Assembly (NCBI GenBank): GCA_947460245.1
Contig: CANHGL010000006.1
Location: forward strand, 1-64,000
DNA from: Sphingobacteriales bacterium
GTDB taxonomy: Bacteria > Bacteroidota > Bacteroidia > Chitinophagales > JADIYW01
Reading direction: 5' to 3'
DNA length: 64,000 bases
The position numbers and the translations under genes are program-made. Below the pieces are notes generated by a model, which saw only the letters and a program-made list of their open reading frames with translations, searched no databases and was not told the origin of the DNA. Positions 11,473-63,878 of the stretch are shown here, in pieces. Positions within the stretch are counted from its first letter, which is position 1. Every line of letters starts with the position of its first letter.

Positions 11473-13644
11473 ATGGCAATTATTGGCAAAATCAGACAGC
11501 GCTCTTGGATCTTGGTGGGATTTATTGCGGTAGCATTACTCATCTTTATTATAGAGGCAGCATTAGAAAGAAATTCTCTGTTCGGCGGAGGTGGTAAAAG
11601 TAATGCCGTAGGCAAGATCAACGGAACAACGATTTCTGCAAAACAATACGGAGAGCAGGTTACCGGATATGAAGAAGGTTTGAAGTTCATCAATCCTACT
11701 TTGCAATTAAATGATCAATTACGCTCGCAGATTCAGGAAGAAGTGTGGAATACCATCGCGGCTAATGAGTTATTGAATGATGCCTATGCTTCTTTAGGAT
11801 TGAATGTTTCAGAAGGCGAGATGGGAGAGTTAATGTGGGGACAGCAACCACATCCTTTGGCACAACGCTTTTTAATGAAAGTGCGGGAAGTAAAACAGGA
11901 TATTATTAATCCGCAAACAGGACAATTGGATCAGGCTAAAGTTCGCGAGTTTATCGGAAGTATAGATCAATATGATAAACAGAATAAGACTAATTTCCGT
12001 CAGATGCTTAGTCATGTAGAGCGTCTTATACAGGATGATCAGGTAAAACAAAAATATGCTACGCTCGTTGGACAATCATTATATGTTCCTACATTCCTCG
12101 CAGATGAATTTGCAAATTCCGGCAGAAGTGCAACCGTGGCATCAGTAAGTATTCCCTATACTGCTCTCTCGGATGATAAATACAAAGTTTCAGATGCCGA
12201 CATAACTTCTTATATAAAGGCTCATCAGGCAAAATACCAGCAACAAGCCTCTAGGGTGGTAGATATCGTTTCGTTTAATGTAGTTCCATCTGCTGATGAT
12301 ACTGCACAAACACTTTCGAAGATTTCTAAAATGCGCGAAGAATATTTGGCATCTATGCCAAACGACTCTGCTTACATTGCTCGCAACTCTCAACAGGGAG
12401 CCGATATAACCTATTACTCTAAGAATGACGTTTTACAGACACAGCGTAACCCGGATAGCTTATTCTCTCTTCCTGTTGGTACTCTGACACAAGTATATAA
12501 GGAAGGTTCATTTTATGTATTTACCAAAATCATAGGAAAGAAAACAGCACCGGATACAGTTCGTGCTGCACATATATTATTATCTGAAGGTAATGGTACA
12601 GATGAAGACAAGAAGGCAGCTAATGTATTAGCAGATAGCTTAATTCGCCTGGTGCAATCTAAGACAAAAGAGTTTGGACAGCTTGCGGTAGATAACTCCA
12701 GAGATGAGGGTTCTAAAAATAAAGGTGGAGACCTCGGGTATTTTACGCGAGGACAGATGGTTAAGGCATTTAATGATAAAGTATTCTATGAAGGTATGCA
12801 GCCGGGACAGATAGCCAAGGTGGAATCTCCTTATGGATTACATATTATCTTGCTAATAGATACCAAGGGCTTACAACAGGTAACTAAGTTCGCGGATTTT
12901 GCGGTAGAACTTATTCCAAGTAACGAGACAGAGAAACTGGCATACAGCATGGCGGTAGATTTTCAGCAAAAGAACCCTACTGCTGAATCCTTTGATAAGG
13001 CTGCAAAAGAGCAGAATACGTACAAGAACATTGTGCTTACACAAGCCATGGTAGATGTACCACAAATTGGCGCTGCACGCAAAATGGTACAGTGGGCATT
13101 TCAGCAAGAAAAAGCCAATGTTATCGATTTCTTTGACACCGATAATAAGTACATGATTGTAAAGCTGAATAAAGTAATGCAGAAAGGCTTAGCAAATGCG
13201 GAAGATGTAAAAGAAGAAGTATCCTTATTGGTACGAAATGAGAAGAAGGGGAAAGACCTGGTTGATCAGTTGAATAAAGCTGCTGCAGGAGCTTCGGATG
13301 TGAATAGCATAGCTGCAAAGGTTAGCGGTGCAACGACATCTGATACTATGCTTGTTCGTTTCTCTTCAGCATATGTACCTGGCTTAGGCAATGAACCAAA
13401 GTTTGTTGGAACAGCATTTGGAGCGCAGGTTGGTAAGCTATCAAAAGCAGTAGCCGGCGAAAGGGCGGCATTTATTTTGATGCCAAAAGTAGTGGAAGCG
13501 CAATCAGCAGAGGCTATACCAGACAAGAATATGTACAAGCAACAAATACAGCGCATGCTAAGCAGTAGAATAAATTTCCAAACGATACTGGAAGCTATTG
13601 TTAAAAAAGCAGACGTGGAGGATACTCGTTATAAATTTTATTAA
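11473..13644 (+). CDS. Peptidylprolyl isomerase / SurA N-terminal domain protein (PpiD-like)
   Basis: N-terminal TM anchor 'WILVGFIAVALLIFIIEAAL', SurA_N-like segment, parvulin domain 'VRAAHILLSEGNGTDEDKKAANVLADSLIRLV...GGDLGYFTRGQMVKAFNDKVF'. Confidence 0.92.
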   Translation: MAIIGKIRQRSWILVGFIAVALLIFIIEAALERNSLFGGGGKSNAVGKINGTTISAKQYGEQVTGYEEGLKFINPTLQLNDQLRSQIQEEVWNTIAANELLNDAYASLGLNVSEGEMGELMWGQQPHPLAQRFLMKVREVKQDIINPQTGQLDQAKVREFIGSIDQYDKQNKTNFRQMLSHVERLIQDDQVKQKYATLVGQSLYVPTFLADEFANSGRSATVASVSIPYTALSDDKYKVSDADITSYIKAHQAKYQQQASRVVDIVSFNVVPSADDTAQTLSKISKMREEYLASMPNDSAYIARNSQQGADITYYSKNDVLQTQRNPDSLFSLPVGTLTQVYKEGSFYVFTKIIGKKTAPDTVRAAHILLSEGNGTDEDKKAANVLADSLIRLVQSKTKEFGQLAVDNSRDEGSKNKGGDLGYFTRGQMVKAFNDKVFYEGMQPGQIAKVESPYGLHIILLIDTKGLQQVTKFADFAVELIPSNETEKLAYSMAVDFQQKNPTAESFDKAAKEQNTYKNIVLTQAMVDVPQIGAARKMVQWAFQQEKANVIDFFDTDNKYMIVKLNKVMQKGLANAEDVKEEVSLLVRNEKKGKDLVDQLNKAAAGASDVNSIAAKVSGATTSDTMLVRFSSAYVPGLGNEPKFVGTAFGAQVGKLSKAVAGERAAFILMPKVVEAQSAEAIPDKNMYKQQIQRMLSSRINFQTILEAIVKKADVEDTRYKFY

Positions 13645-13674
13645 TTCTAAAGAATACGGTAATTATATTTTAGC

Positions 13675-13703
13675 AAAAAGCGGAACTCTGGTTTCGCTTT
13701 TTT
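13675..13703 (+). terminator. Rho-independent terminator after the ppiD-like gene
   Basis: AAAAAGCGGAAC-TCTG-GTTTCGCTTTTTT: stem with one wobble, 4-nt loop, U tract. Confidence 0.85.
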
Positions 13704-13761
13704 GTTTTATATTGGTGATAATCTATTCTATCAATTATAATTCATCTTGTATATTTCTATC

Positions 13762-51644: not shown

Positions 51645-51674
51645 AAAAGAGGCAGTTTTGTGCCTCTTTTTTTT
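51645..51674 (+). terminator. Rho-independent terminator after the PhoD-like gene
   Basis: AAAAGAGGCA-GTTTTG-TGCCTCTTTTTTTT: perfect 10-bp stem plus U tract. Confidence 0.93.
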
Positions 51675-51681
51675 ATTTTTG
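51674..51681 (+). promoter_or_regulatory. -7-like box TATTTTTG immediately before pheS
   Basis: Exact TAnnTTTG ending 4 nt before the pheS ATG (51686). Confidence 0.45.
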
Positions 51682-51685
51682 AGCT

Positions 51686-52714
51686 ATGGATATTTTTCAT
51701 AAAACTGAAGCATTATTAAAAGAGATAGGAGAGGCTGTAATTCCCAGTTCAGAAGTACTGGAATTATTTCGTATTCGTTTTTTGGGAACTAAGAATGTGC
51801 TAAAGGATGTTTTTGCAGAGATGAAAAATATTCCCAGCGATCGTAAAAAAGAATTCGGACAACTCATAAATAGCGTTAAACTTGCTGCAGAAGAGCGATA
51901 TGCTTCCGAAAAAGATAAATTTGAAAGTACAGTTTCTTCCAGCACAGAGCAGTTGGATCTTACATTGCCCGGAGACGTGATTACAGTGGGTGCCAGGCAT
52001 CCTATTCAGCTGGTAAGGAATAGAATCATAGAGATTTTTAAAAGGCTTGGCTTTGCCGTAGAAGAGAACCGTGAGATTGAGGATGACTGGCATAATTTTA
52101 CTGCTTTGAACATGCCTGAAGATCATCCCGCAAGAGACATGCAGGATACCTTCTTTGTAAACTTTAATCCTGATATTGTTTTGCGTACCCATACTTCTTC
52201 CGTTCAGGTTAGAGTGATGGAAAATCAAAAGCCCCCAATCCGAATTTTATCACCGGGTAGAGTGTACAGAAACGAAACTATTTCTGCACGTTCGCATTGT
52301 TTCTTTCATCAGATAGAAGGATTATATATTGATGAAAAGGTATCCTTTGCAGATTTATTGCAGACGTTGGATTTTTTTGCTAAGGAATTCTTTGGAAAGG
52401 ATATTAAGATCAAAGTCAGACCTTCTTACTTTCCATTTACAGAGCCTTCAGCAGAAGTAGATGTTACCTGTTTTATCTGTGCGGGTAAAGGTTGTAACGT
52501 TTGTAAGTATTCCGGATGGGTAGAAATTCTTGGTTGTGGTATGGTGGATCCAAAAGTATTAGAAAATTGTAATATTGATTCAAAGAAATATTCAGGCTTT
52601 GCCTTCGGTATGGGAGTAGAGCGTATTACCATGTTGAAATATCAGATAAAAGACATACGCCTATTGTCTGAAAATGACACACGTTTTCTGGAGCAGTTTA
52701 AATCAGCAATGTAA
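51686..52714 (+). CDS. pheS: Phenylalanyl-tRNA synthetase subunit alpha
   Basis: 'HPARDMQDTFFV', 'LRTHTSSVQVRVMENQKPPIRILSPGRVYRNE', 'FGMGVERITMLKYQIKDIRLLSENDTRFLEQF'. Confidence 0.98.
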   Translation: MDIFHKTEALLKEIGEAVIPSSEVLELFRIRFLGTKNVLKDVFAEMKNIPSDRKKEFGQLINSVKLAAEERYASEKDKFESTVSSSTEQLDLTLPGDVITVGARHPIQLVRNRIIEIFKRLGFAVEENREIEDDWHNFTALNMPEDHPARDMQDTFFVNFNPDIVLRTHTSSVQVRVMENQKPPIRILSPGRVYRNETISARSHCFFHQIEGLYIDEKVSFADLLQTLDFFAKEFFGKDIKIKVRPSYFPFTEPSAEVDVTCFICAGKGCNVCKYSGWVEILGCGMVDPKVLENCNIDSKKYSGFAFGMGVERITMLKYQIKDIRLLSENDTRFLEQFKSAM

Positions 52715-59752: not shown

Positions 59753-60076
59753 ATGTCAGTCAATAGTAAAAGTATTATGAAGCCGGAGTTGAAGATAGAC
59801 TTTCAGGCATTGCGCAAGTCTGTGTTGGTGTTACGTGCTATTAATCATAAGTTGCGTCAGGAAATCATACGTTTATTGGATCAGGAGGGCAAAATGACGG
59901 TAACCGAGTTATATGTCAAGTTGCGTTTAGAGCAATCTGTAGCGTCGCAACATCTTGCCTTATTGCGTCGTGCAGGTGTGGTGCAAACGTCTAGAGTTGG
60001 CAAGTTTATCTATTATTCGGTAGATCATGATAGATTAGAGGAGATTTCTAAACTTTTGCAAGAGTTAGTAAAGTAA
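59753..60076 (+). CDS. ArsR-type winged-helix regulator (cysteine-free)
   Basis: 'INHKLRQEIIRLLDQEGKMTVTELYVKLRLEQSVASQHLALLRRAGVVQTSRVGKFIYYSVD' HTH_5-like. Confidence 0.88.
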   Translation: MSVNSKSIMKPELKIDFQALRKSVLVLRAINHKLRQEIIRLLDQEGKMTVTELYVKLRLEQSVASQHLALLRRAGVVQTSRVGKFIYYSVDHDRLEEISKLLQELVK

Positions 60077-60200
60077 TCTTTGGATTTAATCCTTTTCTTA
60101 GATTAATTCATTAGTTTTTTGATTTAAAGCAATTTGTACCAGTAGAAAATACGTATTTATTTATATATTTTTATACTGAACTAAATTGTAAAAAATCTTC

Positions 60201-60533
60201 ATGGAAAGTTTTGAGTTTAATAATGATAAACTCGAGAAAGCAGCAGAGCTTTTAAGAGCAGTCGCACATCATCTTCGTTTAAAAATTATAAAGCTGATTC
60301 ACGAGCAAAAAGAGGTAAATGTAAACGTCATTTACAATACCCTTAAAATAGAGCAGTCTATTACCTCGCAGCACCTTAAAATTCTCAGAGCAGTAGATGT
60401 TGTCCGCACCCGAAGAGACGGGAAGAAAATTTTCTATTCATTAAACTACGAAAGGTTGGATGCTATGCATAAGGGCATTGACCTTTTCGAAGAATGGACA
60501 CAGGCGCGCAAGGTCGTTAAGAAGAAAAAATAA
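60201..60533 (+). CDS. ArsR-type winged-helix regulator, second paralogue (cysteine-free)
   Basis: 'VAHHLRLKIIKLIHEQKEVNVNVIYNTLKIEQSITSQHLKILRAVDVVRTRRDGKKIFYSLN', alignable by eye with the upstream paralogue. Confidence 0.88.
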   Translation: MESFEFNNDKLEKAAELLRAVAHHLRLKIIKLIHEQKEVNVNVIYNTLKIEQSITSQHLKILRAVDVVRTRRDGKKIFYSLNYERLDAMHKGIDLFEEWTQARKVVKKKK

Positions 60534-60560: not shown

Positions 60561-60604
60561 AAAAGTATTATTTGTCGTATTTTGGTACGATAAATAATAC
60601 TTTT
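60561..60604. repeat. 44-nt inverted repeat (19-nt arms, 6-nt loop) abutting the AhpD-like start codon
   Basis: AAAAGTATTATTTGTCGTA-TTTTGG-TACGATAAATAATACTTTT; arms match at 18 of 19 positions, the remaining pair being G-T. Confidence 0.93.
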
Positions 60605-60949
60605 ATGTCAGATGTAATTCAAGAGTTTAATGACTATCGTTCTAAGATGAATGAGGTCATTCTTGCACAAAAAAATCTTACACTTAATCGCTTTTTCAAT
60701 CTTGATATGCATGCCTATGCGGATGGTGCATTAGATGTTCGCACTAAAGAGATGTTGGGCTTAGTAGCCTCCATGGTTTTAAGGTGTGATGATTGTATAA
60801 AGTATCACCTTGGCAAGTGTAAGGAGCAGCAAGTAAGCACCGAGCAGGTATATGAAGTATTCGCTATTGCTAATCTTGTTGGTGGCAGTATCTGTATCCC
60901 TCATACTCGCAGAGCAGCCGAATACTGGGAAGCGCTCCAAAATATATAA
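60605..60949 (+). CDS. Carboxymuconolactone decarboxylase / AhpD-like protein
   Basis: 'DVRTKEMLGLVASMVLRCDDCIKYHLGKCKEQQVSTEQVYEVFAIANLVGG' with CxxCxxxH. Start ATG 60605; the track's 60572 lies inside the inverted repeat. Confidence 0.9.
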   Translation: MSDVIQEFNDYRSKMNEVILAQKNLTLNRFFNLDMHAYADGALDVRTKEMLGLVASMVLRCDDCIKYHLGKCKEQQVSTEQVYEVFAIANLVGGSICIPHTRRAAEYWEALQNI

Positions 60950-60977: not shown

Positions 60978-63785
60978 ATGAAAAAACTATACCTCTTCGA
61001 TTCCTTTGCGCTTATCTTTCGTGCATACTTTGCTATGCAAAAAAATCCATTGATTAATTCAAAGGGTTTTAATGTATCTGCTATAAACGGATTTATAAAT
61101 ACGCTTTGGGAAATACGAACAAAATATGATCCTACGCACTTCGCGGTAGTATTTGATGCTGCAGCACAAACAGACAGACAGGCAGCACATGAATTTTATA
61201 AGGCAAACCGTCAAGAGACTCCGGATGATATTGTAGCTTCTATACCATACATTAAGGATATTGTTCGGGCAATGAATATGCCCGTGGTTGAAATAAATGG
61301 ATATGAGGCGGATGATCTTATCGGAACGCTTGCAGAGAAAGCAGCAGCAGAGGGGGTTACTTGTTACATCGTTTCTCCTGATAAGGATTTGGGTCAAGTA
61401 GTGTCAGAAAATATTTTTATTCATAAGCCTCCATTTATGAAAAATCCCGCAGAAGTATTAGGTATAAAAGAAATGCAGGAGCGTTGGGAGATAGAACATC
61501 CAAAACAAATTATAGATATTCTGGCACTTTGGGGGGATGCAGTAGATAATATACCCGGAGTTAAGGGTATTGGTGAAAAGGGTGCTAAAGAGTTGATAAA
61601 ACAGTTCGGTTCTTTAGAGGGTATCTATGAGAATATAGAGGATGTGAGAGGTAAGTTAAAGGATAAGCTGATCGAACATAAGGAGATGGCATTTATCTCT
61701 AAACAACTGGCAACGGTTGTTGTGGATGCGCCTATCGACTGGGATGAAGATGCTTTTAAAATAAAAGAGTTTAACAAAGAAAAGCTATCAGCAATCTTTG
61801 CGGAGTTAGAATTTAGAACCTTAGGTAAAAGAATTATAGGCGAAGACTACTCGATGAAGGAGGCGCCTGCTAAGAAACAGATTTTACCAAAAGATACGGC
61901 ACAGATTTCACTCTTCGGTACTACTGCTAATACTGTCGAGCAGGAGGTAGTAGAGGAAAAGCAGTCATTTGATAAGAATATTTCTAATACTCCTCATCAT
62001 TATATCCTGGCAGATACAGACGAGTTGATGGAGGAGCTTCTGGCCCAATTAAATGCAGTAGATAGATTCTGCTTCGATACGGAAACAACCTCACTGGATG
62101 CCAATAATTGTGAGTTGGTTGGATTATCTTTTAGTATGAAAGCATTTGAGGCCTATTATGTGCCGATACCTTCAGAGGCAAATTCCGCAAATCGTATTGT
62201 TGCTAAATTCAAACCTATATTAGAGAATGAAGGCATTATAAAGATTGGACAAAATATAAAGTTTGATCAACTTGTTTTGAAATGGAATGGTGTGGAGGTG
62301 AAGGGCGTATTATTTGATACTATGCTGGCACATTATCTTATAGATGCCGATACTAAACACAATATGAATGTTTTGTCTGAGAACTATCTCGGATATGCTC
62401 CCATCTCCATTACAGAGCTGATAGGGAAAAAAGGAGCAGGACAGATTACCATGAGGGATGTGCCTGTACAAATTGCAAAAGATTACGCAGCAGAAGATGC
62501 AGATGTAACCTTGCAGTTGCACGATGTATTCAGAAAGGAGATTGATCATACGCATCTTCATCATCTTTTTTACGATGTGGAAACTCCGCTGGTGTCAGTG
62601 TTGACAGATATGGAGTATGAAGGGGTAAGTATTGACACACATTTCCTTAAGCAATATTCTGAAGAGATTGGTAGAGATATTATTGCTCTACAGAAAGAAA
62701 TCTTTACAATGAGCGAATCAACGTTTAACATAGATTCCCCAAAACAACTTGGCGAGATATTATTTGATAAAATGGGAATTGATTATCCAGGTAAGCGCAC
62801 TAAAACAGGACAATACTCTACCGATGAGGATACCTTGCAGAAACTGGTTCATGAACATCCTATTGCAGAGAAGTTACTCGATTATCGGGAATTTACTAAG
62901 TTGAAGAGTACCTATGTAGACGCCTTGCCGAATCTGATTAATCCAAAGACAAATAGACTGCATACTACCTTTAACCAGGCTATAGCTGCAACGGGGAGAT
63001 TAAGTTCTACAAATCCCAATCTACAAAATATTCCTATTCGAACAGAGCGAGGCAAGAGAATCAGAAGGGCCTTTATTCCAAGAGACGCGGAGCATCGAAT
63101 CTTCTCCGCAGATTATTCGCAAATAGAATTACGCATAGTAGCTTCCATAAGTGGAGATGTAAATATGATAGATGCTTTTGAGAAGAATCTTGATATTCAC
63201 GCGGCTACAGCAGCTAATGTATTTGAGGTTTCATTGGATGCCGTAACACAAGAGATGCGCAGACAGGCTAAGATGGTCAACTTCGGAATTATTTATGGTA
63301 TATCTGCATTCGGTCTTGCACAACGCCTGGGTATACCAAGATCAGATGCTGGAAAATTAATTGAGCAGTATTTTGAAAAATATAGTGGTATCAAGCAATA
63401 CATGGAGGATACCATAAAGTTTGCGCGTGCCAATGGATATGTGGAGACACTACTAAATAGAAGAAGATACCTCAGAGATATTAATGCGGGCAACTGGACG
63501 ATAAGAGGTTTTGCCGAAAGAAATGCTATTAATGCACCCATTCAGGGTAGTGCTGCAGATATGATTAAGGTGGCAATGATTAGAATACAACATCAGTTAC
63601 AGCAACGCGGACTTCGTTCTAAAATGTTATTACAAGTGCATGATGAGTTATTATTTGATGCCTATCTTCCAGAGCAGGAAATATTGCAGGAGATAGTATC
63701 TCATGAAATGAAAAATGCGCTACCCCTTAGGGTGCCGGTAGAGGTTTCTACTGGCTTTGGTGCAAACTGGCTAGAGGCACATTAA
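60978..63785 (+). CDS. polA: DNA polymerase I
   Basis: 5' nuclease 'MKKLYLFDSFALIFRAYFAM', 3'-5' exonuclease 'FCFDTETTSLDANNCELVGLSF', polymerase 'SADYSQIELRIVASIS', 'RRQAKMVNFGIIYGISAFGLAQRL', 'LQVHDELLF'. Confidence 0.98.
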   Translation: MKKLYLFDSFALIFRAYFAMQKNPLINSKGFNVSAINGFINTLWEIRTKYDPTHFAVVFDAAAQTDRQAAHEFYKANRQETPDDIVASIPYIKDIVRAMNMPVVEINGYEADDLIGTLAEKAAAEGVTCYIVSPDKDLGQVVSENIFIHKPPFMKNPAEVLGIKEMQERWEIEHPKQIIDILALWGDAVDNIPGVKGIGEKGAKELIKQFGSLEGIYENIEDVRGKLKDKLIEHKEMAFISKQLATVVVDAPIDWDEDAFKIKEFNKEKLSAIFAELEFRTLGKRIIGEDYSMKEAPAKKQILPKDTAQISLFGTTANTVEQEVVEEKQSFDKNISNTPHHYILADTDELMEELLAQLNAVDRFCFDTETTSLDANNCELVGLSFSMKAFEAYYVPIPSEANSANRIVAKFKPILENEGIIKIGQNIKFDQLVLKWNGVEVKGVLFDTMLAHYLIDADTKHNMNVLSENYLGYAPISITELIGKKGAGQITMRDVPVQIAKDYAAEDADVTLQLHDVFRKEIDHTHLHHLFYDVETPLVSVLTDMEYEGVSIDTHFLKQYSEEIGRDIIALQKEIFTMSESTFNIDSPKQLGEILFDKMGIDYPGKRTKTGQYSTDEDTLQKLVHEHPIAEKLLDYREFTKLKSTYVDALPNLINPKTNRLHTTFNQAIAATGRLSSTNPNLQNIPIRTERGKRIRRAFIPRDAEHRIFSADYSQIELRIVASISGDVNMIDAFEKNLDIHAATAANVFEVSLDAVTQEMRRQAKMVNFGIIYGISAFGLAQRLGIPRSDAGKLIEQYFEKYSGIKQYMEDTIKFARANGYVETLLNRRRYLRDINAGNWTIRGFAERNAINAPIQGSAADMIKVAMIRIQHQLQQRGLRSKMLLQVHDELLFDAYLPEQEILQEIVSHEMKNALPLRVPVEVSTGFGANWLEAH

Positions 63786-63878
63786 TCGATTGAATTATTC
63801 AACAATTTTTATAATTTTACATCTACAGTTTGCCATCGCAAGCTGTTTTTTTTTCAAAGAATACAACAACGTGCAGAG

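Follow-up and report, generated by a model that had tools for sequence, protein, structure and literature searches.

The inverted repeat between arsR2 and ahpD

The locus lies in a 64-kb window (the whole stretch of DNA that was analysed), in a run of genes that all read on the forward strand, in the order tsaB, arsR1, arsR2, an ahpD-like gene and polA. Both arsR1 (59753-60076, + strand; Pfam HTH_5, 4.6e-9; NCBIfam HTH_metalloreg, above cut-off) and arsR2 (60201-60533, + strand; HTH_5, 1.5e-6; HTH_metalloreg, 1.5e-21, above cut-off) encode HTH regulators of the ArsR/SmtB family. The ahpD-like gene (60605-60949, + strand; Pfam CMD, 6e-16) belongs to the carboxymuconolactone decarboxylase family and carries a CxxC motif, and polA (60978-63785, + strand; Pfam DNA_pol_A, 1.1e-162), identified also by synteny, is its conserved downstream neighbor. 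ArsR proteins proved near-universal at the order level in a search with arsR2, which therefore did not narrow the question. In the window species a canonical terminator follows polA (63825-63846); the relatives for which this could be examined have none there, and their next gene begins immediately. Upstream of arsR1, a conserved ATGCAACC element is found in G002 and G004-G008 (L112-L117) and is missing from the window species; in G004 it forms a full palindrome, GTTGCATGCATGCAAC. The string ATGCAACCWTTTT occurs only 0-3 times per genome, and the element may be a regulator site.

Between arsR2 and ahpD, beginning 27 nt downstream of the arsR2 stop codon, lies an inverted repeat (60561-60604) whose 19-nt arms form 18 Watson-Crick pairs and one G·T pair around a 6-nt loop, TTTTGG. 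The left arm (60561-60579, + strand) comprises an A-tract and stem, and the loop (60580-60585, + strand) is followed by the right arm (60586-60604, + strand), with a T-tract at its end (60601-60604). A preliminary description had reported a near-perfect repeat of 44 nt with these arms at exactly this place, reaching the ahpD start codon, and both points were confirmed; the repeat search even lengthened the repeat by a further pair (60560/60605), which takes in the A of the ahpD ATG. The same description singled it out as the most striking unexplained structure of the window. It is the top inverted repeat among those with arms at most 60 nt apart, and it surpassed all 60 shuffled windows (approximately dinucleotide-preserving, n=60), in which the best 19-nt inverted repeat matched at 14-16 of 19 positions, as against 18 in the real window. 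A likeness to AAATACGTATTT (60147-60158, upstream of arsR2) that had also been pointed out is not meaningful, because the relatives do not have this string ahead of their arsR2.

Folding of the hairpin region as RNA gave z = -5.3, and the sole match to the hairpin in an Rfam search was a chance, miRNA-like one far under threshold. The sequence of the repeat is present in one copy in the 2.2-Mb genome, which rules out a dispersed operator or repeat, and single arms (with up to three mismatches) are no commoner in the genome than a reversed control. A mobile or repeat-derived element of the REP or MITE kind, present here by chance, would likewise yield a near-perfect inverted repeat, but the repeat is single-copy in each genome and occupies one orthologous position throughout the species, making such an origin extremely improbable.

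Conservation across the genus

A protein match to ahpD was detected in 11 of 13 family members, seven of which belong to the same genus when the window's own genome is counted. A homologous hairpin stands just upstream of the ahpD ATG in every same-genus genome with arsR2-ahpD (7/7), and none was found at this place in G001 and G011, members of other genera that have a close ahpD orthologue beside arsR2. The consensus over the seven genomes reads AAACTATTATTTGTC-GTAnnTTw-GACAAATAATAGTTT, followed by a T-rich tract and the ATG, and five positions of the loop (T, A, T, T and G) do not vary among the aligned hairpins. Mean identity is 86% in the hairpin as opposed to 61% between the arsR2 stop codon and the hairpin, and conservation of the left arm reaches 98%. 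Three control terminators in the genus also keep their structure, with a sequence conservation of 79% (ppiD), 64% (ompH) and 64% (hppA) compared with the 86% seen here; this difference suggests a sequence-level function beyond termination, which we consider likely.

The most informative case is the sister species G003, whose genome is 100% complete and yielded no ahpD match. A diverged hairpin, AAAAAACTATTGATT...ATTGATAGTTTTTT, nevertheless follows directly after its arsR2. Its stem contains G·U pairs and its T-tract is longer (T8), so that the arm sequence has changed and the stem and T-tract have been kept. Since G003 keeps the stem without ahpD, the stem is to be assigned to the end of arsR2 and not to ahpD, as a terminator predicts. 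In G012, which is without an intact ahpD orthologue at this place, arsR2 and polA are separated by a short open frame (L122, 1892-2137) whose start resembles the AhpD N-terminus (MKTIVDLLNKFCSKLNE...) and which is possibly a decaying ahpD.

RNA structure or DNA site

The preliminary description had offered two roles for the repeat, a DNA operator for the ArsR-type proteins or an RNA hairpin that controls translation. Alignment of the arms over orthologous arsR-ahpD loci, a check set beforehand, revealed conserved arms and two stem pairs altered on both sides with pairing retained. All 105 stem cells of the genus alignment are paired (105/105), and pairing falls to 35-68% when the partner strand is slid by 1-3 columns. 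Each of the seven one-sided stem changes leaves a U·G or G·U pair in the sense RNA; an antisense RNA would show these as A·C mismatches. In addition, folding favors the sense over the antisense strand in each of the eight species, for instance with -14.3 versus -5.9 kcal/mol in G003. As the species in the alignment are related, the independent changes number roughly 4 to 6, and the case that the G·U and compensated changes and the folding asymmetry make for a sense-strand RNA is good but not overwhelming.

These observations bear directly on the possibility that dimers of ArsR1 or ArsR2 bind the palindrome as a DNA operator, centered on the ahpD -7 box, and repress ahpD. Two ArsR-family genes lie directly upstream, a candidate -7 box occupies the center of the palindrome, and the arm sequence is strongly conserved, above all in the left arm. 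However, in each genus member a search with the arm pattern had its sole match at ahpD and nothing at arsR1, arsR2 or elsewhere, and no such palindrome was found upstream of arsR1 or arsR2, where a regulator's own promoter would carry it. One-sided changes that are all sense-strand G·U, together with an antisense strand that folds worse in every species, are unexpected for a double-stranded site, and G003, which has no ahpD, holds the stem and T-tract with an altered arm sequence. We therefore consider an operator unlikely. Of the two roles first offered, that of an RNA hairpin is supported by the sense-strand G·U pairs, the compensated pairs and the sense-strand folding, whereas the operator is disfavored by the missing copy at the arsR promoters and by the strand asymmetry. 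The repeat thus exists as described, is conserved within the genus, and fits an RNA hairpin best; the specific role that fits best, that of an intrinsic terminator of arsR2, had not been named in the earlier reading.

A terminator-like hairpin at the 3' end of arsR2

The hairpin is built of an A-tract, a stem and a T-tract, as are the intrinsic terminators at many 3' ends in the genus. In a survey of 380 predicted genes from the window and 400 kb of G008, which also underlies the promoter statistics given below, 34-61 of the 379 gene 3' ends, depending on the score threshold (20-30), proved to have a hairpin with T-tract, compared with 0-2 of the 380 controls placed in the middle of genes. The arsR2-ahpD hairpin ranks among the strong terminator-like hairpins of this survey; the simple stem finder used for it misses the G003 hairpin, which has a bulge and is detected by ViennaRNA. 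The distance from hairpin to ahpD ATG is 0-9 nt, and among all terminator-like hairpins at the codirectional junctions sampled this one comes nearest to the downstream ATG (8 nt in G008, the next being 15). Its GC content of ~20% is the lowest among the strong terminators listed, the others having 24-44%, and it is without the GC-rich core that is usual for terminators. The length of the stem, which has 15-21 pairs across species, may compensate for this AT-richness. A T-rich tract follows the stem in the relatives. The window species has four T only, all within the stem and followed by the ATG, and termination may therefore be weak in this species.

The position next to a start codon also invites the explanation that the hairpin serves purely for translational control on a polycistronic arsR-ahpD mRNA, with no termination. 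The closeness of the stem end to the ATG (0-9 nt), whose A is paired in the window, agrees with this, as does the finding that structure at the start codon reduces translation in Flavobacterium johnsoniae (PMC6847099). The T-tract behind the stem in the relatives speaks against it, however, as does the persistence of the hairpin in G003, which has no ahpD that could be controlled, and we regard purely translational control as quite improbable.

Candidate promoter elements

The Bacteroidota -7 box, TAnnTTTG, shows a 7-fold enrichment between -38 and -14 relative to start codons in the window and 400 kb of G008, in accordance with the enrichment expected from Flavobacterium, where this box spans -12 to -5 relative to the start site (PMC9723704). 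For arsR2, the top match to the -7 PWM is TATTTTTA (60166-60173, + strand). The top match falls at -33 to -37 from the arsR2 start in all eight members of the genus, and the box of the same-genus relatives reads TATATTTG in six of seven and TAAATTTG in the seventh. Because this candidate box is conserved in all eight, arsR2 is probably its own transcription unit. Between the box and the arsR2 start (window 60166-60192 and relatives), TTTGTAgtGAACTAA-TTG is conserved in the genus, a degree of sequence conservation that exceeds what a promoter alone would need.

For ahpD, the gap of 0-9 nt between hairpin and ATG has no room for a promoter, so that its -7 element would most likely lie inside the hairpin loop. 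The candidate box, TATTTTGG (60578-60585, + strand), is a PWM match at the aligned place, and a box of the form TAnnTT[TAG]G is present at -27 to -31 from the ATG in all seven species with ahpD, among the three best PWM matches in each. It is the perfect TAATTTTG in G005 and G002 and a one-off match in five species, namely TAnnTTAG in four and, in the window species, TATTTTGG, a variant of TAnnTTTG that is not enriched in the sample. The PWM scan found no loop -7 box in G003, which is without ahpD, and no -33 element was detected. Two other placements of the box were rejected: for the left arm (TATTATTTG), the TA-N3-TTTG spacing is not enriched, and for the right arm with the T-tract, TAnnTTTT is barely enriched and the spacing to the upstream TTTG varies between species. 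A scan for promoters of the E. coli sigma-70 type was uninformative on this sequence.

Proposed mechanism

Taken as sense RNA, the repeat with its T-tract is in our judgment probably an intrinsic (Rho-independent) terminator of arsR2 that overlaps a putative ahpD promoter. The sequence supports this through the conserved hairpin, its strand specificity and terminator-like anatomy, its persistence in a species that has no ahpD, and the box conserved in the loop, and we infer from it actual termination, the ahpD start site and the translational effect. The arsR2 RNA, made from arsR2's own promoter, would be terminated at the hairpin and T-tract. This terminator is possibly leaky, and RNA reading through it would fold over the ahpD start and be poorly translated. 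Transcription from the ahpD promoter itself would start near 60590, within the right arm, and the resulting RNA, with a leader of ~15 nt and no left arm, would be translated. The predicted mean pairing of the ahpD start region is 0.77 in the read-through RNA versus 0.42 in an RNA starting after the loop box, the latter value presupposing a start site where the loop box predicts it, and translational occlusion of ahpD on read-through RNA is thus plausible as a second effect. More tentatively, and with some doubt, we suggest that the loop of a terminator kept across the genus doubles as the -7 element for the gene that follows, such that one palindrome would end the arsR2 RNA, silence read-through ahpD and start the ahpD RNA, and that in one species ahpD was lost, the box decayed and the stem stayed.

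Relation to known systems

The arsR2-ahpD junction combines known kinds of element in compact form; what is new is its place and, possibly, the position of a -7 box within the loop. With intrinsic terminators it shares the A-tract, stem, short loop and T-tract past a stop codon, but its stem is unusually AT-rich, its ATG is the closest at the sampled codirectional junctions and its arms are more conserved than those of the three controls. It resembles the operator palindromes of ArsR/SmtB proteins as an inverted repeat beside ArsR-family genes, and differs in lying after the arsR genes, not before them, in the lack of a copy at the arsR promoters and in changes that obey RNA pairing rules. A further analogue taken into consideration was the classical ampC/frd attenuator.

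Overlaps of terminator and promoter between neighboring operons, such as tufB-secE, have been described in Salmonella (PMC7055797). They share with this junction a terminator that extends into the promoter of the codirectional unit behind it; in the present case the -7 element would sit within the terminator loop, the promoter activity is one we infer, and the genes are unrelated. The hairpins of the phage T4 genes I-TevI, soc and e form only on transcripts from upstream promoters and block the start region (PMC2988022). As there, the gene's own promoter would give an RNA without the 5' arm, but the T4 hairpins sequester the Shine-Dalgarno sequence and time late expression, whereas here no Shine-Dalgarno sequence is expected and the T-tract suggests termination too.

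The biological stakes are modest. The junction illustrates the close packing that two transcription units can reach in a small genome of the Bacteroidota, and the sister species that is without the downstream gene, retaining the stem and lacking the loop box, provides a natural experiment. It also advises caution, since a striking palindrome beside a regulator gene need not be that regulator's operator.

Two further terminators of the window deserve mention. The one after the ppiD-like gene (13644-13710 and orthologues) is itself unusually conserved across the genus, with the sequence AAGCGGAAAA...TTTTCCGCTT. At 51645-51688, the T-tract of another terminator, AAAAGAGGCAGTTTTGTGCCTCTTTT, continues into a perfect -7 box, TATTTTTG (51674-51681), whose end lies 4 nt before the pheS-like ATG at 51686, and the arrangement is possibly a second terminator-promoter overlap, with a leaderless transcript.
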